Virus record (IMG/VR): IMGVR_UViG_3300047469_000263
Location: 1 to 44,760 of that record
From: a virus
Reading direction: 5' to 3' (one strand)
DNA length: 44,760 bases
The position numbers were made by a program, and so were the translations under genes. Below, in pieces: positions 2,007-42,894 of this stretch. Position 1 is the stretch's first letter, and every line of letters begins with the position of its first letter. Under the pieces are notes generated by a model. It ran no database searches. It was not told the origin of the DNA and worked only from the letters and a program-made list of their open reading frames with translations.

Positions 2007-5000
2007 ATGACGTCTTCCGTGAAGCGCTCCCCCAATGTCCCGCAGCGCAAGGAGCTGATACCTAGCACCTTGCCTTTTCCTGTGGTCGGCATCGGGGCTT
2101 CCGCTGGCGGCCTCCAGGCGGTTAAGTCATTTTTCGAGCACATGCCCAATGACAACGGCATGGCCTTTGTCATTATTTTTCACTTGTCGCCCGATTATCC
2201 CAGCCAAGTCGATCGGATCATTCAGGAAGTCACCAAAATGCCGGTGCGGCAGGTGACCGAGACTATCTCCATCGAAAAGAACACCGTGTATGTCATCTCG
2301 CCGGCGCACAACCTGATGATGAACGATGGTTATCTGTCGGTGGCGCCATCGGATCGGCCGCCCGGCATGCATGTGGCCATTGACCTGTTCTTCCGAGACC
2401 TGGCGGATGTGCACAAGGAACGTGCCTTCTGCCTGATACTGTCCGGCACTGGCTCTGACGGTGCGGTAGGGCTTTCACGGATCAAGGAACAAGGCGGCAT
2501 CACCTTGGTGCAGACTCCGGAAGATGCCGAATACGATGGCATGCCCCGGGCTGCCATCAATACGCAGATGGTCGATCTGGTATTGCCCGTGGTCGAGATG
2601 CCGCAAAAACTGCTGGAGCTCTGGCGTAATTCGAAGTCCATCACACTACCGACCGCCAACGATCCGGAAATCAAGACCACCCCTCCTGCTTCCGAACGTG
2701 ATGCCGCCTTGGCCGAGCAGCAACTGCAAGACATCTTGCTTCAGCTGCGCAATGGAACCGGTCACGATTTCAAACACTACAAGCGGGCCACCGTGCTGCG
2801 CCGCATCGAGCGTCGCCTGCAGGTGACCGCACAGCCGGATTTGGGCGCCTACTACGACTATCTGCAAGCCCACCCCGAAGAAACCAAGGCGTTGCTGGGG
2901 GACATGTTGATCGGCGTGACCAATTTCTTTCGCGACCGCGAAGCCTTCGAAGCATTGGAACGCAATGTCATTCCCGATCTGGTTAAATCGTTGCAGGACA
3001 CCCTGCCGCGCCGGGATGAAATCCGTGTCTGGTCAGCGGGCTGCTCTACTGGCGAAGAGTCCTACAGCTTGGCCATCCTGTTGACCGAGCAGATGACCTT
3101 GGAGTCCAGCCCGGCCAAGCTGCAGGTGTTTGCCACCGACATCGATGATCGCGCGATTGCCTTTGGTCGAAGTGGCGTCTATCCCGAGGCAATCATTACC
3201 GACGTTCCGCCGCCGCGCATGCGCCAATATTTCACCCTGGAAAACCATCATTACCGCGTGCGCAAGGAAATTCGCGAGAAAGTGCTGTTCGCCAAGCACA
3301 GCCTGTTGCTCGACCCGCCTTTCTCGCAACTCGACTTGATCGTCTGTCGTAACCTACTGATCTACCTCGACCGCGAGGTGCAGCGTGACATCATGCAGAT
3401 GTTCCACTTTGCCTTGCGCCCGGGCGGTTACCTATTCCTCGGTTCCTCGGAATCCGCCGATGGCTGCCTGGATCTGTTTACGCCGGTGGACAAACGCAAC
3501 CGCATCTTCCGCGCCAAGAGCGTGTCCAGCAGTCCCCGACGCGCACCCACCCTGCCGCGCGGTGGTTATGCACGCACCACTGTCGCCACCCGCCCCCTGC
3601 AACCAGCAGTGGCACGCAAGGTGTCGTTTGCCGACACCCACCTGCGGGCGCTGGACAAGGCCGCGCCGCCGAGTATCATCGTCGACGCCAGCGCCAACAT
3701 ACTGCACATGAGCGAAGGCGCCGGGCGTTTTCTGCGCTACGTGGCCGGAGAGATATCACGCAACCTGTTGACCCTGGCCCACCCGGATCTGCGTCTGGAC
3801 ATTCGCACCACGTTGTACCAAGTACAGCAGAGCGGACTGCCGGTCACCTCGCGCAAAATCCGCATCGAGCGTGAGCAGCGCAGTTACCTGGTCGACCTGA
3901 ACGTGCATCCTTACAAGGATGACGAGACTGACAGCGAATACACCCTGGTGATCTTCGAGGAACGCGAGGTCGATCCTCAAGAGTTGCTCGATATCAGCGC
4001 CAGCCAGACCGAAAACCAGATGTTGGCCAACCTGGAGCATGAACTGCAGCGCACCAAGCTACAGTTGCAGGAGACCGTCGAACAATCGGAAGTCTCCAGC
4101 GAAGAGCTCAAGGCCTCCAATGAAGAAATGCACGCTATCAACGAAGAACTGCGCTCAGCCACCGAAGAACTGGAAACCAGCAAGGAAGAATTGCAATCGA
4201 TCAATGAAGAGCTGCTGACCGTTAATGCCGAACTCAAGGCTAAGGTCGAAGAAACCGATAAGGTTAACGACTACCTGACCAACCTGATTGCCTCCACCGA
4301 CATTGCCACCGTGTTTGTCGATCGCAACATGCGCATCCGCTGGTTTACCCCACGGGCCACCGAGATCTTCAGCATGTTGCCGGTCGACACCGGGCGCTCG
4401 CTAATGGACATCACCCACCGCCTGGACTACCCGGAGATAGCCGAGGATGCGGCAACAGTCTTCGAGTCGCTGAACATGATCGAACGCGAAGTCTGCAGCA
4501 GCGACCAGCGCTGGTACATCGCCCGTCTATTGCCTTACCGCTCCAGCGAGGATCACATCGACGGCACGGTGCTGACCTTCATCGATATCTCCAAGCGCCG
4601 TGCCGCCGAGGAGGAGTTGCGCATCAGTGAAGAGCGCATGCGCCTGGTGGCCGAGAGCACCCATGACTTCGCCATTATTATCCTCGATGATAACGGCGTA
4701 ATCACCGACTGGAACACCGGGGCCAAGTTGATTTTTGGCTACAGCAAAGAGGAAGTGCTCGGCGCCTATTACGACCTGATCTTCACACCGGAAGAACGCA
4801 GCTCAGGCGCACCGGAAATTGAGCTGTGCGCCGCGCGCGAACACGGTCGCGGTGAAGACGAACGCTGGCACCTACGTAAGGACGGCAGTCGTTTCTACTG
4901 TAGCGGTGAAGTCATCCGCCTGGTAGGCGATAGCCTCAAAGGCTATGTGAAGATCGCTCGCGACCTCACCGGTCACAAGCGCCTGCAGGACGAACAAACT

Positions 5001-6155
5001 CAACGGCTGGCCGAAACCCAAACCAGCAGCCATCTCAAAGACGAGTTTTTCGCGGTGATGTCCCATGAGCTCAAGCACCCGCTCAACCTCATCCAACTCA
5101 ATGCCGAACTGCTGCGTCGCCTGCCGATGACCAAAAGCGTCAGCCCGGCCATGAAGGCGGTCAATACCATTTGCGACGCGGTGTCGAGTCAGGCGCGGAT
5201 CATCGACGACCTGTTGGATGTTGCCCGGGTGCGCACTGGCAAACTCAAGCTGAAAAAACAGGCAGTGGATCTGGGACGGATTCTGCAGGACATCCACACG
5301 GTGGTGGTCAACGATCAACACCCTTGCGAAATCATCCTGCAGGTACCCCAGCCGCCGGAGCCACCGCTGGTGGTCGATGCTGATAGCACGCGCCTGGAAC
5401 AGATCATCTGGAACCTGGTGAACAATGCCCTGAAGTTCACCCCCAAGGATGGTCGCATTAAGCTGATCGCCCGGCGCGTCGAGGATGTAGCGCAATTGGA
5501 CGTCATCGACAGCGGCATTGGCCTTGAAGAGGATAACCTGCACAAGGTGTTCGACCTGTTCACCCAGGCGGAAAACCAGCATGCCACCCATCAGCGCGAG
5601 GGCCTGGGCATTGGCCTGTCACTGGTGCGGCAACTGGTGGAAGCCCACGGTGGCTCGGTGGATGTGCGCTCCGAAGGCATTGGCTGCGGTTGCACGTTCT
5701 CCATCCGCCTGCCGCTGTGCCACCCCCATCAAACTGCGCCTGATCAAGCCCAGAACGCGGCTGAATCCGGGCGCCTGCTTGGCCAGAAAGTGCTCTTGGT
5801 GGATGACTCTCGAGACGTGATGGAAGTGCTGCAAATGCTGCTGGAGATGGAGGACGCGCACGTGGAAGCTTTCAGCGATCCGCTACTGGCCCTGAAAGCT
5901 GCGAAAGAAGGCAACTACGACGTGATCATTTCCGACATTGGTATGCCAGTCATGGATGGCCACAAGCTGATTCAGGCCATTCGCCAGATCACCCATCACA
6001 AATACACTCCGGCCATTGCCCTTACGGGTTACGCCACCAGCATTGACCAGCAAAAAACCAGACAGTCGGGGTTCAACTACCACGTGAGCAAGCCGGTCGC
6101 CCATGATGACTTCATCGACATTATTGACGAGGCTTGCAAAACTCGGCCGTATTAA
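2007..6155 (+). CDS. CheB-CheR-PAS-histidine kinase-receiver hybrid protein
   Basis: A 1382-residue multidomain signalling protein. Order: CheB methylesterase (about 25-200, with catalytic signatures GASAGG, HLSPDY and GTGSDG); CheR methyltransferase (about 225-490, SAM loop AGCSTGEESYS); a long Glu-rich coiled coil (about 668-755); two PAS domains (about 760-990); HisKA with the phospho-acceptor His in SHELKHPL (about 1019); HATPase_c (N box NLVNNALKFTP, GLGIGLS); and a receiver with phospho-acceptor Asp in ISDIGMP (about 1308). All catalytic residues I looked for are present. There is no transmembrane segment, so it should be cytoplasmic. I chose the ATG at 2007 because AAGG sits about 9 bases upstream; the in-frame TTG at 2001 is too close. 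It is an unusually large cargo gene between the tail/lysis block and attL, on the opposite strand to the late genes, and should be transcribed independently of them. Confidence 0.93.
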   Translation: MTSSVKRSPNVPQRKELIPSTLPFPVVGIGASAGGLQAVKSFFEHMPNDNGMAFVIIFHLSPDYPSQVDRIIQEVTKMPVRQVTETISIEKNTVYVISPAHNLMMNDGYLSVAPSDRPPGMHVAIDLFFRDLADVHKERAFCLILSGTGSDGAVGLSRIKEQGGITLVQTPEDAEYDGMPRAAINTQMVDLVLPVVEMPQKLLELWRNSKSITLPTANDPEIKTTPPASERDAALAEQQLQDILLQLRNGTGHDFKHYKRATVLRRIERRLQVTAQPDLGAYYDYLQAHPEETKALLGDMLIGVTNFFRDREAFEALERNVIPDLVKSLQDTLPRRDEIRVWSAGCSTGEESYSLAILLTEQMTLESSPAKLQVFATDIDDRAIAFGRSGVYPEAIITDVPPPRMRQYFTLENHHYRVRKEIREKVLFAKHSLLLDPPFSQLDLIVCRNLLIYLDREVQRDIMQMFHFALRPGGYLFLGSSESADGCLDLFTPVDKRNRIFRAKSVSSSPRRAPTLPRGGYARTTVATRPLQPAVARKVSFADTHLRALDKAAPPSIIVDASANILHMSEGAGRFLRYVAGEISRNLLTLAHPDLRLDIRTTLYQVQQSGLPVTSRKIRIEREQRSYLVDLNVHPYKDDETDSEYTLVIFEEREVDPQELLDISASQTENQMLANLEHELQRTKLQLQETVEQSEVSSEELKASNEEMHAINEELRSATEELETSKEELQSINEELLTVNAELKAKVEETDKVNDYLTNLIASTDIATVFVDRNMRIRWFTPRATEIFSMLPVDTGRSLMDITHRLDYPEIAEDAATVFESLNMIEREVCSSDQRWYIARLLPYRSSEDHIDGTVLTFIDISKRRAAEEELRISEERMRLVAESTHDFAIIILDDNGVITDWNTGAKLIFGYSKEEVLGAYYDLIFTPEERSSGAPEIELCAAREHGRGEDERWHLRKDGSRFYCSGEVIRLVGDSLKGYVKIARDLTGHKRLQDEQTQRLAETQTSSHLKDEFFAVMSHELKHPLNLIQLNAELLRRLPMTKSVSPAMKAVNTICDAVSSQARIIDDLLDVARVRTGKLKLKKQAVDLGRILQDIHTVVVNDQHPCEIILQVPQPPEPPLVVDADSTRLEQIIWNLVNNALKFTPKDGRIKLIARRVEDVAQLDVIDSGIGLEEDNLHKVFDLFTQAENQHATHQREGLGIGLSLVRQLVEAHGGSVDVRSEGIGCGCTFSIRLPLCHPHQTAPDQAQNAAESGRLLGQKVLLVDDSRDVMEVLQMLLEMEDAHVEAFSDPLLALKAAKEGNYDVIISDIGMPVMDGHKLIQAIRQITHHKYTPAIALTGYATSIDQQKTRQSGFNYHVSKPVAHDDFIDIIDEACKTRPY

Positions 6156-6195
6156 CCCCGCGAGGTCTTGCTCTGAGCGGTCATTTGCCATCGTC

Positions 6196-6227
6196 GAAGG
6201 GCTACTATTCGTCGACTAAAGCCCTTC
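6196..6227. terminator. Inverted repeat between convergent genes
   Basis: GAAGGGCT (6196-6203) and AGCCCTTC (6220-6227) form an 8-bp stem with a large loop in the 76-bp gap between the stop of the CheB/CheR kinase gene and the stop of the spanin gene. Convergent gene ends and a hairpin suggest a two-way terminator, although a long U tract is absent. Confidence 0.45.
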
Positions 6228-6231
6228 AACT

Positions 6232-6765
6232 TCAGCGCATAACTTCACCCACGTATGACTGGCACGCGGCCAATGCAATCAGTCCTTGGTCGCCGGCGTC
6301 AGTGATGGCGACAATTCGTTGAGCATGCGCTGGGTCAAGTTCGGCTCTCGTGACTCCATGAACCACGCCGCCGGCGCTGGCAGTGGCTGACACCCTGGCA
6401 TCGCCAAGGGGGCCGGTGGTGAGTAGGACTGACAACCGCACATCAGCAGTGGCAAGGCGATCAGACAGAAGTTGCTGAGTTTTCTTTGCATCAGACAGTT
6501 CCTTGTAGTGGGTTTCATCATTGGCCTGCAGGCGGCGCTCCAGGGCGGCGCGCTTGTCCTTCTCGATCGCCAGCGCGGCCAGGGCATCCTCGGCGCGCTT
6601 GCGGGCCGCTTGATCGACCTTGCCGGCCTGCTCGGCCAGTTCCTTGCCGTAACGCCAGTCTTGCGCCACCCAGGCGCCGCCAGTGGCTGCGCCGGCGATC
6701 GCCAGCAGCACCAGGCCCACCGCCCAAGGGCGCAGCGCCGGCGGTATTAGATCGATCAGGCGCAT
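6232..6765 (-). CDS. Rz-like inner-membrane spanin subunit
   Basis: A 177-residue protein with one N-terminal membrane anchor (about residues 14-32, Ala/Leu/Gly-rich) followed by a long charged coiled-coil region rich in Ala, Lys and Glu. This is the Rz (i-spanin) layout, needed to disrupt the outer membrane at lysis. The ATG at 6765 is inside the 3' end of the lysozyme gene (10-bp overlap), which suggests translational coupling. A shorter lipoprotein frame, Rz1, is nested inside it, as in lambda. Confidence 0.82.
   Translation of the reverse strand: MRLIDLIPPALRPWAVGLVLLAIAGAATGGAWVAQDWRYGKELAEQAGKVDQAARKRAEDALAALAIEKDKRAALERRLQANDETHYKELSDAKKTQQLLSDRLATADVRLSVLLTTGPLGDARVSATASAGGVVHGVTRAELDPAHAQRIVAITDAGDQGLIALAACQSYVGEVMR
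6279..6491 (-). CDS. Rz1-like outer-membrane spanin lipoprotein, nested in Rz
   Basis: A 70-residue protein in a different frame, wholly inside the Rz gene. It starts at ATG 6491 with AAGGA about 9 bases upstream. A short basic N-terminus and hydrophobic core lead to LLMCGC, a lipobox whose second Cys (residue 20) would be acylated. The mature part is Pro-rich (PPAPLAMPG, PLPAPA), as usual for Rz1. Together with Rz it would bridge inner and outer membranes during lysis. The nested arrangement, lipobox and Pro content make this a firm call despite its size. Confidence 0.8.
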   Translation of the reverse strand: MQRKLSNFCLIALPLLMCGCQSYSPPAPLAMPGCQPLPAPAAWFMESREPNLTQRMLNELSPSLTPATKD

Positions 6766-7406
6766 AGCACCGCCTTGGCCGTGGCCCACAGCTCGCGCCG
6801 CTCTGCCCGGCCATTGCTGCCGCCGTTGATCACACTGCTGATGCCATCGAACAGCCCGAGGTCGGCCTTGTCGTTCAAGCCGCGATCCCACCAGAACCAG
6901 GCCGCCGACAGCGCGGCATATTCGGGCTGCGCCAGCAGCTCGGGTTGCTCGACCAGGGGCACGCCCAGGGCCTTGCCGCACAAGCGGTAGTTGTCGCGAA
7001 AGGTGATACCGATCAGGCCGCGCGCGCGGTACTTGTAGCCGTCGCCGGACGCCTCGGGACCGTTACCGTAACGGCCGCCATAGACCCGGTTGGCCAGCTT
7101 TTCCGAGTTGCGCAAATAGCCCTTGGCAAACTCGACCTCGGCCGGATCGACGCGGCCGTTATGGTTCAGATCAAAGCCGTACTTGAACATCTGCGCGACC
7201 CGCTCGGCGTCCTTGTAGTACAGGCTTTCGCTCAGCGATCGGAGCTGCCCCGACTCGTGCCCGACCTGCGCCAGAAAAGCCGCCTGGCGCGCCGGGGTGG
7301 TGATGCCGAATCGCGCCATGGCGCGATTCAGGGCCGGCACAAAAATGCCCGCGACGGGGCGGGCATTGGGGAGAATGCGCAGCAACTGCGCCTCGGTGAT
7401 TGGCAT
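6756..7406 (-). CDS. Endolysin, GH19 chitinase-like lysozyme
   Basis: A 216-residue glycoside hydrolase family 19 type protein, used by many phages to cut peptidoglycan glycan strands. Likely catalytic glutamates are in GHESG (Glu51) and SESLYY (Glu60), and the C-terminal part carries the conserved FAWFWW-like and INGG segments (AWFWW, SSVINGGSNG). The start at 7406 is supported by GGAG 8-10 bases upstream; the open frame extends farther back but without protein-like sequence. There is no signal peptide, so export would depend on the holin, which is encoded about 22 kb away at 29205-29549. Confidence 0.88.
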   Translation of the reverse strand: MPITEAQLLRILPNARPVAGIFVPALNRAMARFGITTPARQAAFLAQVGHESGQLRSLSESLYYKDAERVAQMFKYGFDLNHNGRVDPAEVEFAKGYLRNSEKLANRVYGGRYGNGPEASGDGYKYRARGLIGITFRDNYRLCGKALGVPLVEQPELLAQPEYAALSAAWFWWDRGLNDKADLGLFDGISSVINGGSNGRAERRELWATAKAVLCA

Positions 7407-7423
7407 GGGTGAAACTCCAGACA

Positions 7424-7447
7424 AAAAACGGCCGCTCGATGGCGGCC
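7424..7447 (-). terminator. Intrinsic terminator between tail gene D and lysozyme
   Basis: On the minus strand GGCCGC-loop-GCGGCC (7447-7430) is followed by GTTTTTT (to 7424) and directly by CTGGAG, the Shine-Dalgarno of the lysozyme gene. It would stop or attenuate late transcription unless Q-type antitermination is active. The same layout recurs at several late-gene junctions. Confidence 0.7.
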
Positions 7448-7461
7448 TGGGGAATGGGGGG

Positions 7462-8505
7462 TTACAGCTGCTCGACCCTGAGCGGCTTGTCTTCTTTCTG
7501 CTTCTTGCCGGCGGCCTTCGCCTTGCCCTTCTTGCCGCCGTTGCATTCCACCGTGGTGTTCCACCCGGCCGCCGTGAACACCTGCTCCACACTGTCCACC
7601 AGGTACTCGCCGTCAAGCCCGGGCTTGAAGCCCTGAGCGCTGATCGAGCGCTCAGCGAACAGATCGGTACGGCCGGGCATTTCCAGGCGCACCGCTGCCG
7701 TGCTGCGATTGAACGCCGCCAACCGGGCCTTGGCCGCCTGCTGGGCGGCGGTCTTGTTGGGGTAGATATGGCGGTCGGTGTGGACCGGGGGCAAGCCGGA
7801 TGGGGAATCAGCGTTGGCCACCTCGACCACCTGCAGCTCGCCGGTTTGCTTGTCCTGATGCTGGGTTTTCACCGCCTTTTGCGTGCTGCGATCGCTCAGC
7901 CGGAACTCATAGCGGGTGACGTCCGTTTTGCTGAGGGTGACCACCCCAAGCGTTTTGCCGGTCACGCTCTGCCCTGCCTGCCGAGGCATGACCAGCAACT
8001 TGCCCTCGGCCACCTTCGCGGTGCTGTCGTACTGCCTGGCCAGGCGCGTGACAAAGTTAAAATCCGACTCGTTGCGCTGATCGATCCGCTCGACCTTGGT
8101 GGTGACCGGGCACACCGCCTCCCAGCCATTGCGCTTGGCGATATCAGTGACGATGTCAGACAGCGGCACGTTCTCCCAGCTGCCGCTGCGAATGGTCTTG
8201 CCGCTTCCGCGCATGTCGCTGGCCTTGCCGCGTATCACCAAGGTGTCAGGCGGCCCGCTCAATTGCACCTCATCGACCGTATAGGCCCCCATGCGCGTGA
8301 GCGCTTGCCCTTCATAGCCTAGCAAGACCTCGACCCGCCCCCCGCGCGCGGGCAGTGCAACGGCTTGGTCGCGGTCGTCAATGCGCAATTCGAATTCGTC
8401 CGACTCCATGCCGGGCTTGTCCGATATCCGCAACATCAAAAGGCGGTCATTGATCAGCGCGGTAATGTCCGTGCCATCCGCGATGATTCGATAAGTAGGT
8501 TTCAT
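7462..8505 (-). CDS. P2 gpD-like tail protein (late control / baseplate hub)
   Basis: A 347-residue protein of the phage late control D family, the P2 gpD / T4 gp27-like hub that joins tail tube and spike. The N-terminal half begins with a typical strand (PTYRIIADGTDIT) and the middle carries a LARQYDSTAKVAEGKLLVMP-type segment characteristic of the family. A Lys/Gly-rich tail follows. ATG 8505 is chosen because GGAGCAAGG precedes it. Despite the name, a direct role in transcription control is not implied. It is the last structural gene before lysis, as in P2. Confidence 0.88.
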   Translation of the reverse strand: MKPTYRIIADGTDITALINDRLLMLRISDKPGMESDEFELRIDDRDQAVALPARGGRVEVLLGYEGQALTRMGAYTVDEVQLSGPPDTLVIRGKASDMRGSGKTIRSGSWENVPLSDIVTDIAKRNGWEAVCPVTTKVERIDQRNESDFNFVTRLARQYDSTAKVAEGKLLVMPRQAGQSVTGKTLGVVTLSKTDVTRYEFRLSDRSTQKAVKTQHQDKQTGELQVVEVANADSPSGLPPVHTDRHIYPNKTAAQQAAKARLAAFNRSTAAVRLEMPGRTDLFAERSISAQGFKPGLDGEYLVDSVEQVFTAAGWNTTVECNGGKKGKAKAAGKKQKEDKPLRVEQL

Positions 8506-29887: not shown

Positions 29888-31702
29888 ATGACAAGCCATA
29901 CAGACAAAAAAGGCAACGACTCGCCTCTCAACGAGCCTTCACACTTGAGAGAATATTTAGAGTATTACAAAACCCTTTCCAGTCCAGGCTACGGCATACT
30001 AGTAACTGGTGATTGGGGGTCAGGCAAAACATTTCAAGTAAACGAAATATTAAATCAAGATGAAATACACTACATAAGTTTATTCGGAGCACAAACCACA
30101 GAAGAAATATACTCCGCCGTGTATGCAAAAATGCATCCACTCAAGTCGTTAACAAAAGGAATCGCGAACTCGGCAAATGGTGCCGGAATTGGACCAGTTA
30201 ATGTTGGAGGATTGCTATCCGGAGTCGCAAATGCAATTATCCGAGAGCAGGTCAACAATGACAGAATTTTGGTTTTCGACGATTTAGAGCGAAGCAAAAT
30301 CGACCCCAACGATTTGCTAGGCGTATTTAACAAATACATAGAACATCATAACTGTAGAGTCGTCGTTCTCGCACACGACAAAGAAATCACTGAAGTCTTC
30401 AAAGGCATAAAAGAAAAAGTTTTCGGCCAGACAATTTCTATAGTGCCCCAAACATCGAAGGCCTTTGACAGCTTTACCAGCAAAATAAAAGACCCGACCA
30501 CCCTTAGAACAATAACCAAACTAAAGCCTGCAATACTAGACATATTCACCCAATCAGAAACCCACTCGCTTCGTATACTAAAACACTCTCTAGAGGACCT
30601 TATTAGGCTGTTCGGAGCTCTCACACCCGAGCACAAATCAAACGGAACTGCCATACTCGAATTGACAAGCCTATTCTTAGCATTGAGCTTAGAAGTTAGG
30701 GCCGGACGTATAGATGAATTATGCATCAAAGATAGAAGCGGCTCGATCATCCGGCATCAAATGAAAGTCGCTCGAAAGGAAAAAACTTCCGAGATACCAA
30801 AAATTTACAAAGCTTCAACCCGATATAAAAACATCGACATCAGCAATAAACTTCTGACCGATGAAGTATTAACAAGCATGCTATTTAAGGGGAGTTACTC
30901 AGATACAAGCATACAGGCGTCTTTAAACAAAAGCCTGTACTTCACCAGCCCTGAAGATCTTCCTGCGTGGCTAGTATTCATGAAATTCGATGAACTTAGC
31001 GATAAGGAATCACATGAGGCTGCGGAAAAACTGAAGATACAGTTCACTAACCGGGAGTTAATCGAACCTGGTGAAATGCTTCAGCTATTCTCACTTCGAT
31101 TTCTGCTTTCAGAAATGGGACTAATCTCACGTAATTTTTCCGAGACAGAAGAGGACTGCAAACAGTATATGGAGGATCTACTCAGCCAACATAAAATTAA
31201 ACCTTTTGCTGGATACCGAGACAACTTCACCACTGGATACGGAGGTTACGCGTTCTGGGTTGAAGAAAGCTATAACAAACACTTTTCTAGACTCAACAAC
31301 TATTTGAAAGATACGCAGATTAGAGCAGAAAAACAGCGCCACCCCGAAATAGCAAAAACGCTTCTTACATTGATCTCTACTGATGGCGATGAGTTCGCAG
31401 GAAAAATCAGCCACACAAATGGCGGAAAAAACGATTTTGCAACCACTGATGTCTTGGCCAGCATACAGCCAAGCGATTTCGTTCAGGAATGGATGGGGTC
31501 TCCTGCGAAAAACTGGAGACATATAAGCAGAGGATTAGAGCAAAGGTATTCTGCCGGACAACTTCAAACCACACTTAAAAGCGAAAAATCCTGGATGAAA
31601 GAAGTCATAATCCTGATTGATCGCGAAATAATTAAATCTAAAGGCATCAGAAAGAAACGGATCGAGCGTATTTTGCCATTGAGCTTAAGAAACATGGTCT
31701 AA
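29888..31702 (+). CDS. KAP-like P-loop NTPase, AT-rich cargo gene
   Basis: A 604-residue protein with Walker A GDWGSGKT (41-48), Walker B RILVFDDLER (about 126-135) and a following NCRVVVLAHDKE strand with a sensor-like position, the layout of KAP/STAND-related P-loop NTPases. The C-terminal 400 residues are helical with no domain I recognise, and there is no clear transmembrane segment. The gene is much more AT-rich than its neighbours and runs against the late operon, between Q and the holin, a common moron slot. KAP ATPases include the phage-exclusion protein PifA, so a defence role is plausible but only inferred. Confidence 0.82.
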   Translation: MTSHTDKKGNDSPLNEPSHLREYLEYYKTLSSPGYGILVTGDWGSGKTFQVNEILNQDEIHYISLFGAQTTEEIYSAVYAKMHPLKSLTKGIANSANGAGIGPVNVGGLLSGVANAIIREQVNNDRILVFDDLERSKIDPNDLLGVFNKYIEHHNCRVVVLAHDKEITEVFKGIKEKVFGQTISIVPQTSKAFDSFTSKIKDPTTLRTITKLKPAILDIFTQSETHSLRILKHSLEDLIRLFGALTPEHKSNGTAILELTSLFLALSLEVRAGRIDELCIKDRSGSIIRHQMKVARKEKTSEIPKIYKASTRYKNIDISNKLLTDEVLTSMLFKGSYSDTSIQASLNKSLYFTSPEDLPAWLVFMKFDELSDKESHEAAEKLKIQFTNRELIEPGEMLQLFSLRFLLSEMGLISRNFSETEEDCKQYMEDLLSQHKIKPFAGYRDNFTTGYGGYAFWVEESYNKHFSRLNNYLKDTQIRAEKQRHPEIAKTLLTLISTDGDEFAGKISHTNGGKNDFATTDVLASIQPSDFVQEWMGSPAKNWRHISRGLEQRYSAGQLQTTLKSEKSWMKEVIILIDREIIKSKGIRKKRIERILPLSLRNMV

Positions 31703-31765: not shown

Positions 31766-32458
31766 TTATGCTGCGTTGCGAATTACACTTACAGCGCAAT
31801 CAACCCATGCTGCACCTGCTCTGACTAATTCACGTGCTTTACCTTCGCTCATCCCGTAGTATTTTCCGACACGAACCATCGGCCATTTGGCTCCAAAATA
31901 CAGCCATACGACGTCCCCCATCTGCTGATCCCGAAGTGCGAGCTTGGCTACAGCATTGTCGATAGCAATAGCCCATTCATCAGTAATGCAGTAGTTCTTG
32001 CTTGCTACCGGCTGCACCACTGCTTGGCGCATCAGCGCTAAAGTCGGTGATGTGTAGCCTGGAACGCCCACTCCATCCATCCGCCACCATCCCCACTGCT
32101 CCAAAAGATACTCAGTGTCTCCCAGCGGTCGGCCAGCCGGCTTACGAATCATCATGCGCTCAATCCCCTGTGTAATTTGTGCCGCCCGCCCCCAGGCGGT
32201 TCGATTGCTTGTACTGTCGCTGGACTCCGGGCACGGTCCTTTCAGCGCCGCGATTTCGCGTTGAATCTCCTGCAATCTAAAGCTCAACTGAGTGACCAGT
32301 TCGTCTGAAGAAAGCACCAACTTGCTACCCCCAACAACCCAACCTGAGCCGTTGCAATCAGTGCAAACCAGCTCATAAAAAACCCCCTTGACTACTGTTT
32401 TCCCCTTGCAGATCGAGCATGGCTCCAGCTCGATCCGTTCCCGCTCAAAGCCAGGCAT
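31766..32458 (-). CDS. Putative late antiterminator Q
   Basis: A 230-residue protein with an N-terminal Cys cluster (CSICKGK, then CTDCNGSG), a DnaJ-like zinc-binding knuckle, and a C-terminal winged-helix-like part (VWLYFGAKWPMVRVGKYYGMS) close to the lambda Q / DUF1133 group. It lies last in the early operon and just before the late operon leader with two terminators, the classic Q position. AAGGAG lies 9 bases before ATG 32458. It overlaps the recombinase gene end by 14 bp. Confidence 0.72.
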   Translation of the reverse strand: MPGFERERIELEPCSICKGKTVVKGVFYELVCTDCNGSGWVVGGSKLVLSSDELVTQLSFRLQEIQREIAALKGPCPESSDSTSNRTAWGRAAQITQGIERMMIRKPAGRPLGDTEYLLEQWGWWRMDGVGVPGYTSPTLALMRQAVVQPVASKNYCITDEWAIAIDNAVAKLALRDQQMGDVVWLYFGAKWPMVRVGKYYGMSEGKARELVRAGAAWVDCAVSVIRNAA

Positions 32459-33773
32459 TGGTCTTTTCTCCTTGGTTTAAAACCTCGCCCTTAACAAATT
32501 GCGGAATTGACTCGCAGGCCACTCTATTCAAAGCATCTACGAGGTTTTGCGAATCTTCATATCTAGCGCCTGTCTGCTCATGGATCGCCTTGAAGCCACG
32601 CTCATCTAACCAGTTGTGCCACTTCACCAGAGCCAGCCGACGCTGCTCCTTGGCCTGGGTGTTGATGTACGTCGAAGCGATCTTGCCCAGCGAATGGTTC
32701 AACAGCATCTCGCCGATGTGGCCATCGACGCCGAGGTCAGTCCAGGCGGTACGCGCTACCTTGCGCAGGTCGTGGCTGGTCCAGGCGCCCTGCCCCAATC
32801 GACTGAACACGGCACTGGCCTGGTTATCGCTGAGCGGCTTACCTCGGCGAGAAGGGAACAGGAATGGTCCCTCGTACCCTTGGGCGGCCTGCCGATCCCG
32901 GTACCGGTGCAGTAACGCGCAGACCTGGTCGGTCAGTGGCACCCTCAGCTCGGTCTTGCTCTTGGTGTGTTCGGCCGGCAGGTACCACTCACGCTCAGCC
33001 ATCGCGATGGCGGCCCAACGGGACTGACGGGTTTCGCCAATGCGGGTGCCGTGGCACAGCATCATCAGGGCCAGCATGGCGTCACCGGGTGCAGTCTCGA
33101 ATCGCTCCGCCAGCTGTTCCACCAACTCGGGCACCTGCACATCGCGCAGGCGGGCTGGCTTGGGCAGGATGCGCGCCGTCGTGAAGTTGATGAACTTGAG
33201 CTCCGCCATCGGGTTAGCTGGGATCAGATCCAGCTTACGGGCCTGACGAAAGGCCACCGCGAGCAGACGGTACAGCTGCTGGACGTACGATAGCGACAAC
33301 TCGGCCTGAGCCGGCCACATCAACAGCTTGTCCAGGGTCTGGGCATTGACGTCGCGAATCAGCAGATCTCCCAGCCGCGGTTTGAGCTGGCAACTGATGG
33401 CTGATTTACCCGCAGAACGGCGCTTAGCGGACAGCGCGCGCGAGCGAGCCATGCGATCGCCATACCAGTCCAGCAGCTCGCCGACGGTCACCCAACCCGA
33501 AACGCTGGCAGCACCATCGGCCGCCACTCGCAAACGCACTGCCGGCAACGCTGCGACCACCTGTTTGGTACTCAGGTCCGGAAATCCGCCGATGCGGTGC
33601 CACTGGCGCTTGTTCAGCAGGTACCAAGAACCGCGGGTGCGATTTTTCGAATAACGGAAATGCAACGCAGGGTGACTGGCATCACGCAGATCGCGCACAT
33701 GCTCTAGCCGGGCATTGCGCTGAATCTCGGCGTCTGACAGTTTCACGGTCAGGGTCTTGATCAGGGTGCTCAA
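32445..33773 (-). CDS. Second tyrosine recombinase, in the replication region
   Basis: A 442-residue tyrosine recombinase with the whole catalytic set: Arg244 (CHGTRIGET), Lys271 (HTKSK), His334 and Arg337 (SHDLRK), His360 (LNHSLG) and Tyr369. The N-terminal 90 residues resemble the arm-binding / DUF4102-like domain of P4-type integrases. It lies within the early operon between DnaB and Q, 9 kb from attR and 32 kb from attL, so it is unlikely to be the integrase of this prophage. It overlaps the small gene before it by 4 bp. A role in dimer resolution or in a DNA inversion is possible but unproven. Confidence 0.85.
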   Translation of the reverse strand: MSTLIKTLTVKLSDAEIQRNARLEHVRDLRDASHPALHFRYSKNRTRGSWYLLNKRQWHRIGGFPDLSTKQVVAALPAVRLRVAADGAASVSGWVTVGELLDWYGDRMARSRALSAKRRSAGKSAISCQLKPRLGDLLIRDVNAQTLDKLLMWPAQAELSLSYVQQLYRLLAVAFRQARKLDLIPANPMAELKFINFTTARILPKPARLRDVQVPELVEQLAERFETAPGDAMLALMMLCHGTRIGETRQSRWAAIAMAEREWYLPAEHTKSKTELRVPLTDQVCALLHRYRDRQAAQGYEGPFLFPSRRGKPLSDNQASAVFSRLGQGAWTSHDLRKVARTAWTDLGVDGHIGEMLLNHSLGKIASTYINTQAKEQRRLALVKWHNWLDERGFKAIHEQTGARYEDSQNLVDALNRVACESIPQFVKGEVLNQGEKTNAWL

Positions 33774-37456: not shown

Positions 37457-37517
37457 ATAAGCAGGCTTATATCGTATTAAGAAGGAGGCTTATTTGCAAG
37501 AGAATAAGGGAACTTAT
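37457..37517. promoter_or_regulatory. OR-like region: three operators between cro and cI
   Basis: ATAAGCAGGCTTAT (37457-37470) is a perfect palindrome. AGAAGGAGGCTTAT (37480-37493) and ATAAGGGAACTTAT (37504-37517) match 12 of 14 positions of the consensus ATAAGCNNGCTTAT. Centres are 23 and 24 bp apart, as in lambda OR. A cro promoter fits on the minus strand: TTGCAA (37499-37494), 17 bp, TACGAT (37476-37471). Toward cI, TATAAA (37515-37520) sits 9 bp before ATG 37530, overlapping the third operator. Confidence 0.75.
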
Positions 37518-37529
37518 AAATTTACGGGC

Positions 37530-38186
37530 ATGACGACATTAGCCGAACGCATGAAACTCGCACGCAAACATGCGAACCTGACCCAGAAAGCACTGGCCGA
37601 AAAGGCTGGTGTTGAGCAGCCCGTAATCTCTCAGCTGGAGACTGGCAAGAATCAGCAGAGCGCCCATCTCTCGAAATTTGCGCATCTCTGCGGCGTCAGC
37701 GCGATTTGGCTGTCTGACGGGATTGGATCTATGACCGATAAAACATCGGGTGACTCCAATGTGCGGATGGCACAGCAGCCCGCAACGCTTTACCGATATC
37801 CCGTTATCAGTTGGGTCTCTGCTGGATCGTGGGAGGAGGCGGTTCAGCCCTACCCCGACGGATTTTCAGACCGCTACGAGCTTTCTGATTATGACTCCAA
37901 AGGCCCGGCGTTTTGGCTTGAGGTAAAAGGTGACTCGATGACGGCACCAACCGGCACCAGCGTTCCCGAAGGAATGCTCATTCTGGTCGACACCGAAGCC
38001 GACGTTAAGCCTGGAAAGCTGGTAATCGCCAAGCTACCTGCCAGCAATGAAGCCACCTTCAAGAAGCTTGTAGACGATGGCGGAGTGAGATATTTGAAGC
38101 CGCTAAATCCGGCTTACAAGATGGTTGAGCTAGATGAGAACTGCAAAATCATAGGTGTTGCGGTGCGTATGACTGGAAAGCTGTAA
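37530..38186 (+). CDS. Phage repressor, S24/LexA-like (CI)
   Basis: A 218-residue repressor. An N-terminal helix-turn-helix (KALAEKAGVEQPVISQLE) is followed by an S24 peptidase domain: cleavage site Ala98-Gly99 in WVSAGSW, nucleophile Ser136 in KGDSM and general base Lys178/179 in TFKKLV. It should repress early promoters and cleave itself when RecA is active. The frame is open to a TTG at 37494 with AAGGAGG in front, but that would put an operator inside the gene. The ATG at 37530, only 9 bp past a -10 box, allows a leaderless mRNA as for lambda cI, so I prefer it. Confidence 0.9.
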   Translation: MTTLAERMKLARKHANLTQKALAEKAGVEQPVISQLETGKNQQSAHLSKFAHLCGVSAIWLSDGIGSMTDKTSGDSNVRMAQQPATLYRYPVISWVSAGSWEEAVQPYPDGFSDRYELSDYDSKGPAFWLEVKGDSMTAPTGTSVPEGMLILVDTEADVKPGKLVIAKLPASNEATFKKLVDDGGVRYLKPLNPAYKMVELDENCKIIGVAVRMTGKL

Positions 38187-39325: not shown

Positions 39326-39640
39326 ATGCATCCATCATTTCAAGAGCGCGTCGATGAACTCGGTGTGCTGCTGCAAAAAACTCGAGCGGCACGGGCCGGT
39401 TTCTTCGACCGCACTGATCGGCGGATGCCACCGAAACCGGTTCGCTTTCAGGTAACCGGTGAGAGCGCCGGAATGTTCCAGGTTGTCGACCTGACCACCG
39501 GAAAGATCCGCGCCTTCCGCGAGGGCTACAAGGCCGCTCATGATCTTGCCATCCAGTTCGAAGAGAAAGTTAACCGCATGGCCGGAGTGCAGAGTTATCG
39601 GAGTACCAATTTCCAACTCGCGGGACTCGCTCATCGATGA
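39326..39640 (+). CDS. Unknown early protein
   Basis: A 104-residue basic protein (FQERVDELGVLLQKTRAARAG, then PPKPVRFQVTGE). GAGG lies about 9 bases before ATG 39326. It is the first intact gene of the plus-strand operon. The last 15 or so residues may be shifted: another frame carries a protein-like stretch (DSLIDDLNQHKFESVS) to a stop at about 39707, so a small frameshift or a second short gene is possible. No family recognised. Confidence 0.55.
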   Translation: MHPSFQERVDELGVLLQKTRAARAGFFDRTDRRMPPKPVRFQVTGESAGMFQVVDLTTGKIRAFREGYKAAHDLAIQFEEKVNRMAGVQSYRSTNFQLAGLAHR

Positions 39641-39717
39641 CCTGAACCAGCATAAATTCGAATCAGTCTCGAAGAACACCATCAAACACAACGCCCACAA
39701 GTTGTGAAGCCACACTT

Positions 39718-40395
39718 TTAGTCCAACTTCACCGGGGTGAATTTAATTCTAGCTAACGAACTGCCACGCTCTGAAACTGAAACATGCATTTCATATCGAT
39801 CAGATGCAAGTACATCCCCGCCATACCTATAATCTATCCGAATATTATACTTTTCATCAAGGACAGGGAGGGAAGTCTTAAAAAGTGTTTTCTGATTAGT
39901 CTCGAGACTAGAAGTACTCCCCACAAACCTGTCATCGCAATACAAGCTTATATCTTCCGCATTATTACCTTGATTACTTATATAAAAATTTACATTTAAG
40001 CTCCCATCAGCACTTGGGACATTAGCAATCAACCTTAAGCTTGGAAGCAGTGCGGCCTCCCTTTGCTCACGCTCGTAATTTGCTTTTAATAATTCAGCCT
40101 CCAACTGCCTTCCTGCGATACCAGCCATCTCTTTTTGCTGGTTTACTGAATTTCTCAACTCATCAGCCTGAAGCCTAAGAGCCTCATTGTTCTGCCGAAG
40201 CTCGTGCCCTTGCTGAAAAAAACCAAGGATCAGCCATAATATTGCGACGGGTCCAAACACACCCGCCAGAAAGTCGCCCATTTCGTTCAGTGGCATCCTT
40301 TCAAGTGCATCAATTTTGGAACCCGCAAGCTTGAAAATTAATGTTGCATAAGCTCCACTACCTATAATCCCCACCCATGCCAACCATCTATTCAT
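39718..40395 (-). CDS. Membrane protein, Abi-like candidate 1
   Basis: A 225-residue protein with two N-terminal transmembrane segments (about 5-25 and 45-65), then a coiled coil (HELRQNNEALRLQADELRNS) and a beta-rich C-terminal domain (NVNFYISNQGNNAED). The second segment carries GDFLAGVFGP, shared with the next minus-strand membrane protein (GSFFGGVFGP). This resembles the start of the putative phage abortive infection family putAbiC as I remember it. It is AT-rich and reverse to the int operon, so it looks acquired. Function inferred. Confidence 0.7.
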   Translation of the reverse strand: MNRWLAWVGIIGSGAYATLIFKLAGSKIDALERMPLNEMGDFLAGVFGPVAILWLILGFFQQGHELRQNNEALRLQADELRNSVNQQKEMAGIAGRQLEAELLKANYEREQREAALLPSLRLIANVPSADGSLNVNFYISNQGNNAEDISLYCDDRFVGSTSSLETNQKTLFKTSLPVLDEKYNIRIDYRYGGDVLASDRYEMHVSVSERGSSLARIKFTPVKLD

Positions 40396-40505
40396 TCTTC
40401 AACTCCACCTACTGAAGATGCGGATATACAGCACGCGAAACTAAATTGCCACCACCCCGCGCTGTAAATCCGACCTCGGAGGGTGACAACTGACTGGAAA
40501 TCACC

Positions 40506-40711
40506 ATGAGACCTGAAGAAATCAATGCTATCCAGCTCTGCCTGCTTTGGCAGCGGGCAGTGGCGCACACCCAGACATAAGCCAAGATCAGCTACATGGT
40601 TTCGTTCAAGAAGCAAAGTCCCGCAAGAAGCGATACAACCGCGACCCGATGTGCATTGGTAGTAACCAAACTGCCCCAACTCCACCTATTGCGCCAACGG
40701 ACATTGAGTAA
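40506..40711 (+). pseudogene. Frameshifted plus-strand gene relic
   Basis: MRPEEINAIQ begins at ATG 40506 but stops at 40580. Coding-like sequence then goes on in another frame (HPDISQDQLHGFVQEAKS, KKRYNRDPMCIGSNQTAP) to TAA 40711. This fits a gene of the plus-strand early operon that decayed, with the two minus-strand membrane genes on either side. It explains the otherwise empty 320-bp gap. Confidence 0.4.
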
Positions 40712-40715
40712 TTAT

Positions 40716-41354
40716 TCAAACATTGAAAAGATTTGGCTCGATGCTTTTCAGTTCTTTGTTCATCTTTAGACTTAGCTGCTCAACGCTCTCAAACTGGCCA
40801 AGAGATATTTCAACAGAAAGTTGTATGAGCATACCAACCTGCTCTTCTGTCGACTGAATGTTCCTATCAATTTCTATGAGCTTCTCGGTTCTTGGAACTC
40901 CCGACTTTCTGCCCAGCTCGAAAAGTCTAGCACCCTCGGCGTTGTACCTATCCAGCATTCGCTCAAACATTGTTATCTGTTGATCCAGCAACTGTAGTTG
41001 ATGTGACTTGTAATCCGATAGCTTTGAAAAATTAACCTGATCCACTTGCGCTTGATGAGTACGCATTTGTTGAGAGCTCAACTCTTCAAACTCGTTCTTT
41101 TGGATAACGAGGAGTTGCTTCTGCAGCTCTATAGTTCTCAATATTGCAAAAAGTGTTACTAAAGAAATGGCAGGGCCGAACACGCCACCAAAAAAGGATC
41201 CGAAAGCCGACCAACTTTCCGATGCACTTGACAGGCCAGCATTGAACACCTTCAAGTAGGTTCCTACAGTTATTACCAGCAAGCCAAGTATGAAAATCAG
41301 TCCATATTTCAACCCCCTATCCAAGGGGCTTTTTACTAAATCAATTTCTTTCAT
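40716..41354 (-). CDS. Membrane protein, Abi-like candidate 2
   Basis: A 212-residue protein with two N-terminal transmembrane segments (about 16-36 and 48-70) and then a long cytoplasmic coiled coil (ELQKQLLVIQKNEFEELSSQ and further). The GSFFGGVFGP motif at the second segment and the following helix with Gln/Glu repeats match the neighbouring protein at 39718-40395, so the two are probably distant paralogues. AGGAGGCGGG precedes ATG 41354. It is AT-rich and in reverse orientation within the int operon. A superinfection exclusion or abortive infection role is inferred. Confidence 0.7.
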   Translation of the reverse strand: MKEIDLVKSPLDRGLKYGLIFILGLLVITVGTYLKVFNAGLSSASESWSAFGSFFGGVFGPAISLVTLFAILRTIELQKQLLVIQKNEFEELSSQQMRTHQAQVDQVNFSKLSDYKSHQLQLLDQQITMFERMLDRYNAEGARLFELGRKSGVPRTEKLIEIDRNIQSTEEQVGMLIQLSVEISLGQFESVEQLSLKMNKELKSIEPNLFNV

Positions 41355-41398
41355 CCCGCCTCCTGATAATTTTTTCCTTCCGAGCGAAAGGATATCCC

Positions 41399-41518
41399 AT
41401 GTCCGCCCAACAGATCCTAGATCCGCAGGAAATCTTTGACGACTACAGCAACAAACGCGTCTCACGCATGAAACGGTCTGAGGATCACTTGGACTGCACA
41501 AAGATGTCGGCTGGGTAA
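41399..41518 (+). CDS. Short unknown protein before excisionase
   Basis: A 39-residue frame with AAAGGA 6 bases before ATG 41399 (SAQQILDPQEIFDDYSNKR). It is divergent from the membrane protein gene by 44 bp and followed by the DUF4224 gene. No family recognised, but good ribosome site and operon position support it as real. Confidence 0.5.
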   Translation: MSAQQILDPQEIFDDYSNKRVSRMKRSEDHLDCTKMSAG

Positions 41519-41600
41519 GTGTCGTAGCCCAACACCACCTCTCTCGAAAAGCGCTAGCCCCTCCCACCTTCTGCCGTCACGCCCGGCATGGAGCACAATC

Positions 41601-41843
41601 ATGGAAACCGAAATCCTCTCGGACGAAGAACTTGCGGTACTCACCGGCTACAAGGCCAGGGCCTATCAACGCCGGTGGCTGATTGATCGGCAGTGGGTGT
41701 TCGTAGAAAGCCGCGGTAAACGTCCTCTCGTTGGGCGAATGTATGCCCGCATGAAGTTGGGCATGATCACCCCAACTATCGCTGACCCCAACCCTCCCAC
41801 CGCGGCGCCGGCATGGACGCCCGATTTCTCGCGAGTGAATTGA
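41601..41843 (+). CDS. DUF4224 protein, probable excisionase
   Basis: An 80-residue small DNA-binding protein of the DUF4224 family (LSDEELAVLTGYKARAYQRR, WLIDRQWVFVESR), which is typically encoded directly upstream of tyrosine integrases and acts as an excisionase/directionality factor. It ends 1 bp before the integrase ATG (TGATATG), so the two are coupled. Confidence 0.82.
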   Translation: METEILSDEELAVLTGYKARAYQRRWLIDRQWVFVESRGKRPLVGRMYARMKLGMITPTIADPNPPTAAPAWTPDFSRVN

Positions 41844-41844
41844 T

Positions 41845-42894
41845 ATGCGCCCCCGCAATACTGAGACACGCAATTTACCGCCACGCATGTACCAATGGAC
41901 GCGGAAACGAAAGAGCGGAAAGGAGTGGATTGCCTATTACTATCTGGACCTTACCGGTAAGGCGATCCCATTGGGCAAAGATCTGGACCAGGCCAGAATC
42001 AAATGGGCGGAACTCGAAGCCAAGGAGAAACCGCTCGACCTACGCACCATGAAGGGCATCTTTGACCGATACATCCGAGACATTGTCCCAAAGAAAGCGG
42101 CGCGTACGCAGAAGGACAACCTGGCAGAGATCAAACAACTGCGCCCCATGTTCGACAGCGCCCCTATCGACTCAATCACACCAGCAACGATCGCGGGTTA
42201 CCGTGATGCACGAACGGCAAAGGTACGGGCAAACCGTGAGATTGCCATCCTCTCCCACGTGTTCAACATGGCCCGGGAGTGGGGTCTGACAACCAAAGAA
42301 AATCCTTGCCAGGGCGTACGCAAGAACAAGGAAACGCCAAGAGACTATTACGCAAATGATGCTATTTGGGATGCAGTTTACAAGAAGGCCGCTCAAGAGC
42401 TGAAAGACGCGATGGACCTGGCCTACCTAACCGGTCAGCGGCCGGCAGATGTCTTGGTTATGCGGAAGGATGACGTTGAGGGGGACTATCTGATGGTGCA
42501 GCAGAATAAAACCCACAAGAAGCTTCGAATCCAGATCAATACCGGCGGGTTGGCAAATACCCTGGGGCAACTGATCACAAAGATAACGGAGCGCAACGCT
42601 CACCACCTCTCGAGCTATTTGATCGTGAACCGGCACGGCAAGCGGATGACTGCGACGATGCTGAGAAAGCGTTGGGACCTGGCCAGAGAGAAAGCGAGGC
42701 TGCTAGCGATTGAGATGGGGGACACGCTACTGGCTGGCAGAATCGGCGAGTTTCAGTTTCGGGACATCAGGCCAAAAGCCGCATCGGAGATCATTGACGT
42801 CGGTGAGGCAAGTCTGCTGCTCGGGCACACCAAAGGCGACATTACCGAGCGGGTTTACCGCCGAGTCGGCGCCATTGCCAGGCCATCAAAATAA
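41845..42894 (+). CDS. int: Phage integrase, tyrosine recombinase
   Basis: A 349-residue lambda-type integrase. An N-terminal arm-binding domain (about 1-65) and core-binding SAM-like domain (about 68-160) precede the catalytic domain, with Arg199 (TGQRPADV), Lys222 (NKTHKK), Arg309 (FRDIRP), His328 (LGHTKG) and Tyr338. The usual His of the H-x-x-R motif is replaced by Arg306. The gene is 130 bp from attR and flanked by arm sites, so it is the integrase for tRNA-Ser. Start ATG 41845, coupled to the DUF4224 gene. Confidence 0.94.
   Translation: MRPRNTETRNLPPRMYQWTRKRKSGKEWIAYYYLDLTGKAIPLGKDLDQARIKWAELEAKEKPLDLRTMKGIFDRYIRDIVPKKAARTQKDNLAEIKQLRPMFDSAPIDSITPATIAGYRDARTAKVRANREIAILSHVFNMAREWGLTTKENPCQGVRKNKETPRDYYANDAIWDAVYKKAAQELKDAMDLAYLTGQRPADVLVMRKDDVEGDYLMVQQNKTHKKLRIQINTGGLANTLGQLITKITERNAHHLSSYLIVNRHGKRMTATMLRKRWDLAREKARLLAIEMGDTLLAGRIGEFQFRDIRPKAASEIIDVGEASLLLGHTKGDITERVYRRVGAIARPSK

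Follow-up and report, generated by a model that had tools for sequence, protein, structure and literature searches.

Why would a temperate phage keep, inside its integrase operon, two AT-rich genes written against the direction of that operon? The question is raised by a viral record of 44,760 bases, analysed over its full length (“the window”), which judged by its relatives is a temperate phage of Pseudomonas type. A preliminary description had reported two paralogous membrane proteins inserted in reverse around a frameshifted gene, and had proposed an acquired two-gene module for abortive infection or superinfection exclusion. The two genes, called A and B here, are indeed found on the minus strand, AT-rich and opposite to the int operon (Table 1). 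Their placement within that operon is also right, with orf104 upstream on the plus strand and the DUF4224 gene (probably xis) and int downstream.

Table 1. Features at and around the integrase-proximal cargo of the phage, with positions in the window.
Feature	Position	Strand	Basis or remark
cI-like repressor gene	37494-38186	+	right end of phage
orf104, 104-aa backbone gene, left border of the slot	39326-39640	+	homologues in many int-linked loci
Variable cargo slot, 1.9 kb, between conserved backbone	39653-41563		alignment to related prophages
Gene A, 225 aa	39718-40395	-	predicted: pair of TM helices, extended helical stalk, beta-sandwich at the C-terminus
Head of A (residues 120-222), predicted beta-sandwich, Ig/CARDB-like	39730-40038	-	AlphaFold2 model
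A residues 40-49, GDFLAGVFGP, small-residue zipper, TM2 start	40249-40278	-	homologue alignment
Broken reading frame separating A from B	40506-40711	+	read from sequence
Gene B, 212 aa	40716-41354	-	predicted: pair of TM helices, helix of 107 residues, C-terminus also helical
B residues 52-61, GSFFGGVFGP, GxxxGxxxGP, TM2 start	41172-41201	-	homologue alignment
Short ORF, 39 aa, MSAQQILDPQ...	41399-41518	+	starts divergently from B
DUF4224 gene (putative xis) at the right edge of the slot	41601-41843	+	PF13986, 2.3e-10
Tyrosine integrase (int), used for sampling the slot	41845-42894	+	PF00589, 1.2e-11

Gene A starts at the ATG at 40395, with GGTGGAG upstream, and gene B at the ATG at 41354, just downstream from AGGAGG; a longer GTG ORF for B is a read-in. 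GC content is 0.43 in A and 0.42 in B, as against 0.55-0.58 in int, xis and orf104, and a consensus scan for promoters of the two genes did no better than on shuffles. Both proteins fall into families of unknown function, A into PHROG 9267 (1e-31) and B into PHROG 8999 (7e-12), and neither matches a PADLOC-DB 2.0 or Pfam family at E up to 1. Among the fetched loci there are about 90 distinct homologues of A and 48 of B; phage and plasmid collections hold three partial matches each for A and no match for B. Both genes are rare outside Pseudomonas (399 genomes of the phylum). The two families appear to be uncharacterised, whereas the type of slot that holds them is known already. One contig from outside the genus, from Limnobacter litoralis (L208), encodes two B-like two-TM proteins with the same type of module, at 2934-3689 and 5974-6648, on the same strand and ~2.3 kb apart.

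Between A and B, a plus-strand frame runs from its ATG to a stop at 40580 and carries on in another frame. The broken frame that had been described is thus present, but its status as a gene is unproven, and no relative was found in the fetched loci or the phage collection. Within the 39-aa ORF on the other side of B, positions 41438-41483 match loci L042 and L123.

The surroundings of the two genes were compared by scanning viral contigs with the integrase, which yielded 80 related prophages (int identity 84-96%). The DUF4224 gene adjoins int in nearly all 80 loci, and orf104 matches no Pfam family. When the window is aligned to related prophages, backbone similarity stops at 39652 and restarts at about 41555-41564. 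Between the same borders other loci hold 2.4-8.3 kb, and L017 only 503 bp; in this locus without cargo, an ordinary plus-strand phage gene stands alone between the borders. A and B are therefore cargo in a variable slot whose sharp borders are common to related prophages, in keeping with their description as acquired. Direction is biased as well: among the AT-rich ORFs that lie upstream of int and encode 150 aa or more, 83 of 91 lie opposite int, whereas 160 GC-rich ORFs in the region run with int and 43 against it.

What else occupies the slot can be read from 89 cargo ORFs, in which Pfam finds DUF2971 in six, PIN_12 in four, RelA_SpoT, putAbiC and HNH in three each, and further families including AAA_21, Fic and AbiGi. 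PADLOC adds AbiP, AbiLi, AriA (PARIS-AriA-like), PDC-S31, PDC-S33, PDC-M07A, HEC-01A and others, and in a sister prophage, L009 (int 95% identity), this slot encodes a putAbiC/AbiP protein. The rate of PADLOC matches was dropped as a test of enrichment, the control rate being identical: four of ten random cargo ORFs match, and so do four of ten random plus-strand ORFs, the latter through generic repressor, methyltransferase and HNH models. Because of this, the case for defence rests on the kinds of PADLOC matches and not on their number. As in a defence hotspot, conserved phage genes stand on both sides, the content varies, and the occupants include known defence genes. Since the same slot often holds anti-phage genes in sister prophages, A and B are most likely phage-defence genes. 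Another occupant, in L010 (3554-5358, minus strand), is a two-gene cargo in which a 170-aa protein overlaps a 431-aa protein whose beginning is AAA ATPase-like (MHYFRNFKNYSNAQIDLFSSFTLLIGKN).

In the related prophages L202, L204, L129, L162, L176 and L159, early phage genes on one strand (one for a dcm-like methyltransferase among them) alternate with single cargo genes on the reverse strand, often just upstream of the start of a backbone gene. This interleaving points to several insertion points rather than one. Conserved DNA upstream of cargo, such as GCCGCTATAGCGGC and TTTTCTGTGGGCAT, was considered as a cassette leader or recombination site and rejected: DNA of this type consists of the 5' ends of backbone genes by recurrent insertion points, and it is absent from the slot of the window. 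Elsewhere in the window, a KAP-type P-loop NTPase of 604 aa (29888-31702, plus strand, GC 0.417) runs opposite to its neighbours as a second cargo gene; it matches the PADLOC candidate defence family PDC-S49 at 3.6e-144, and PF07693 weakly. Because the same phage carries this close relative of PDC-S49, it probably has two cargo sites. A second tyrosine recombinase (32445-33773, minus strand; PF00589, 1.4e-22) lies between an antitermination-Q-like gene (PF06530) and DnaB.

The proteins themselves were modelled with AlphaFold2 from family alignments (pLDDT 91.8 for A and 84.5 for B). In both models a pair of TM helices at the N-terminus leads into a long helix, and the C-termini differ, as had been described. 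In A, TM1 spans residues 2-26, a helix at 36-116 comprises TM2 and the long stalk, and eight strands follow at 120-222. In B, TM1 spans 10-36, the long helix 45-151 and another helix 156-185, before a short C-terminal helix. By the positive-inside rule, both ends of each protein are predicted to be cytoplasmic. A PDB search with the B model returned coiled-coil chance matches only. For the head of A, the best Foldseek matches are the CARDB domain 3idu (E 3.5e-3, prob 1.00, TM 0.44 by target) and SoxYZ 2oxg (E 4.9e-3), with none below 1e-3; by its model the head likely belongs to the Ig-like sandwich fold class, from which no family assignment follows.

The G-[SD]-F-[FL]-[AG]-G-V-F-G-P motif that first drew attention to the pair is real, with little or no variation across 50 sequences of the A family and 36 of the B family. 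G40, D41, A44, G45 and P49 of A are kept in all 50 homologues and G48 in 48, and G52, G56, G57, G60 and P61 of B in all 36. The pattern common to both, in register, is G-x3-[G/A]-x3-G-P at the start of TM2, which resembles a glycine zipper. Glycine zippers are a mode of TM helix packing, and small-residue zippers are found also in membrane proteins that form no pores. The rate of the motif within the families (132/147) is partly circular, as the homologues were found via the motif region; the point free of circularity is that the motif stands in register in two families without BLAST similarity. Among 999 other TM-containing ORFs of the same loci the pattern occurs in six, mostly away from a TM helix.

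How closely related, then, are A and B? BLASTP gives no alignment at all between them, so that paralogy finds no support at this level. In profile-profile comparison they align with Prob 87 and E 4e-6 over 21 columns, and with deeper alignments with Prob 64 and E 7e-5 over 94 columns. These alignments around the motif weakly support the word “paralogous” and suggest a homology that is distant at most and confined to the membrane module.

A closer relative of B is found among the putAbiC-type proteins. Their N-terminal TM1-TM2-coil module aligns with B by hhalign over 107 columns (Prob 98.5, E 2.2e-15), and with A in the motif region alone (E 7e-5). Among ~8,000 ORFs the B HMM matches L022, L065, L129, L176 and L202 at 41-63 bits, and an HMM built from the membrane module of B together with that of putAbiC picks up a few proteins of the A family (E 2e-4 to 7e-3). 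The N-terminal two-TM module with G-x-F-x-G-G, as in L009, L022 and L065, is present in B and weak in A. This module is an observed companion of putAbiC proteins and not what defines them in Pfam: PF16872 models the C-terminus (205-296 in L022), not the membrane module. True PF16872 proteins encoded in this slot reach 57-78 bits, whereas a search at E up to 1 finds no PF16872 match in A or B, which rules out calling either of them putAbiC by Pfam. The profile search against putAbiC that had been suggested thus has a divided outcome, homology for the membrane module of B but the PF16872 domain in neither protein. On profile evidence, B is clearly related to these proteins, carrying their type of membrane module without PF16872 membership, and A is a distant cousin at most. 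The putAbiC-type proteins (PF16872; PADLOC AbiP; L009 3820-4653 and L022 2746-3783) share the prophage slot and the B-like N-terminal module, but have a PF16872 C-terminal domain where A and B have none. The collection of papers searched contains nothing on putAbiC, and a search on glycine zippers in phage defence found nothing on the A and B proteins.

Whether A and B work as a pair can be judged from how often they meet. Of the 80 slots sampled by int, eight hold A, four hold B and none holds both; a fifth tblastn match to B, in L065, is a putAbiC-like relative and was left out of the count. Besides the gene of the window there are 47 distinct B genes, and for three of these an A lies no more than 4 kb away, which is no commoner than the 10% slot frequency of A. 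Among 300 Pseudomonas genomes (thresholds >130 bits for B and >100 bits for A), B is present in 12, A in 19 and both in five, which is above chance (P 3.5e-4). In two of these five the genes lie far apart, and the co-occurrence is explained by common use of the same prophage slots. Order is B then A in the window and in L204, and A then B in L234 and in L202, where a 681-aa methyltransferase-like gene lies between them on the opposite strand. Spacing varies as well, so that neither a fixed order nor a stable co-occurrence is seen. It is thus very unlikely that A and B were acquired as one two-gene system, whose shared membrane parts would form hetero-oligomers. Their adjacency on the same strand, the same zipper in register, the four linked pairs and the co-occurrence in five of the 12 B-bearing genomes speak for such a system; the empty count in the slots, the rarity and inconstancy of linkage and the plus-strand frame lying between A and B in the window speak against it. 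The two-gene module of the preliminary description finds no support here.

We favour, at about even confidence, a reading in which A and B are two independent single-gene lysogenic-conversion genes, whose membrane-anchored products abort infection through an effect of TM2 on the membrane. Written against the int operon, they would be expressed from the prophage, apart from the phage's own genes. The TM hairpin would anchor each protein in the inner membrane and leave the C-terminal part on the cytoplasmic side. The small-residue zipper of TM2, with its proline and the helix that continues into the cytoplasm, suggests an oligomer built by packing of the TM2 helices against one another. In the cytoplasm the variable part, an Ig/CARDB-like sandwich in A and a helical bundle in B, may sense a component of an infecting phage. 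Sensing would then shift the TM2 bundle and disturb the membrane, so that the infection would end before any progeny are produced. The functional part of the preliminary description, abortive infection or superinfection exclusion, therefore stands as the best guess, on account of the Abi-type occupants of the slot and the putAbiC module of B, but not as a joint system.

The main rival to abortive infection is exclusion at the stage of DNA entry, in which A, B or both would block DNA injection by related phages from the inner membrane of the lysogen, without killing the cell. Classic exclusion proteins (P22 SieA, T4 Imm, lactococcal Sie2009) are small inner-membrane proteins encoded near the immunity region of temperate phages, and the location and lysogenic orientation of A and B are like theirs. 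Known exclusion proteins of this type, however, are usually small, with little outside the membrane, and the large cytoplasmic stalks and heads, together with the putAbiC-type module of B, point to intracellular sensing; exclusion is accordingly rather unlikely. Slightly less probable still is a lysogenic conversion unrelated to defence, by which A and B would alter the envelope or host physiology through receptor masking, a stress response or prophage maintenance. Morons of Pseudomonas phages can change surface phenotypes, and the head of A resembles CARDB/Ig adhesion-type folds, but this head is predicted by the positive-inside rule to be cytoplasmic, and most of the other genes in the slot that can be identified are of Abi, toxin or nuclease-like kinds. 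That A and B are structural, lysis or replication proteins of the phage is highly improbable. They are indeed encoded within a phage and, like holins, contain TM helices, but they are AT-rich, opposite to the operon, missing from most sister phages and replaced there by unrelated genes; moreover the apparent endolysin ORF (6756-7616) is far off, and the PHROG families are of unknown function.

Abortive infection is supported by the slot, the orientation, the zipper kept in register, the relation of B to putAbiC, the PDC-S49/KAP candidate defence gene of the same phage and two precedents. Counting against it are the absence of PADLOC and Pfam matches for A and B, the promoter scan that did no better than chance, the uninformative PDB matches of B and the occurrence of small-residue zippers in proteins that are not pores. 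PdpSau, from Staphylococcus aureus prophages, is an Abi protein anchored in the membrane, whose potential and permeability it changes (PMC10127798). Like A and B, it is a single prophage gene encoding an N-terminal membrane anchor and a cytoplasmic domain, and the abortive infection with membrane changes proposed for them is the one seen with PdpSau; unlike them, it has a single TM helix, its cytoplasmic domain is OB-like, and it belongs to the lysis module rather than sitting by the integrase (PMC10127798). In the RexAB-type system of a Pseudomonas putida prophage, the membrane effector RexB damages the membrane, a feature proposed for A and B, which are likewise prophage-encoded (PMC12894663). 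Unlike A and B, that system has two components, with a DNA-binding sensor. RexB is also a different kind of membrane protein. The slot has parallels in the antiviral hotspots of P2-like phages, P4 satellites and Vibrio K139-like phages, the Vibrio one lying between cI and the integrase (PMC9122126). Those hotspots are loci of 1-5 kb and high turnover, filled with defence genes and set between conserved phage genes (PMC9122126). The slot differs in its Pseudomonas phage group, its tyrosine integrase with a DUF4224 neighbour, and its cargo mainly reverse to the operon. The text of that study makes no mention of putAbiC, AbiC or AbiP.

A more speculative thought, which we hold as improbable, is that the glycine-zipper TM hairpin with its coiled stalk is a swappable membrane effector of phage-borne abortive infection, fitted with unrelated sensor heads: an AbiC/AbiP-type domain, the helical bundle of B or the Ig/CARDB sandwich of A. 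Lysogens with two such proteins may then mix oligomers and respond to two phage signals.

For Pseudomonas prophages, the slot supplies a rule for finding candidate anti-phage genes, which are to be sought as AT-rich ORFs on the strand opposite int, in the interval from orf104 to the DUF4224 gene and int. If the membrane module kills and the C-terminus senses, PHROG 9267, PHROG 8999 and the putAbiC-type proteins would share one mechanism.
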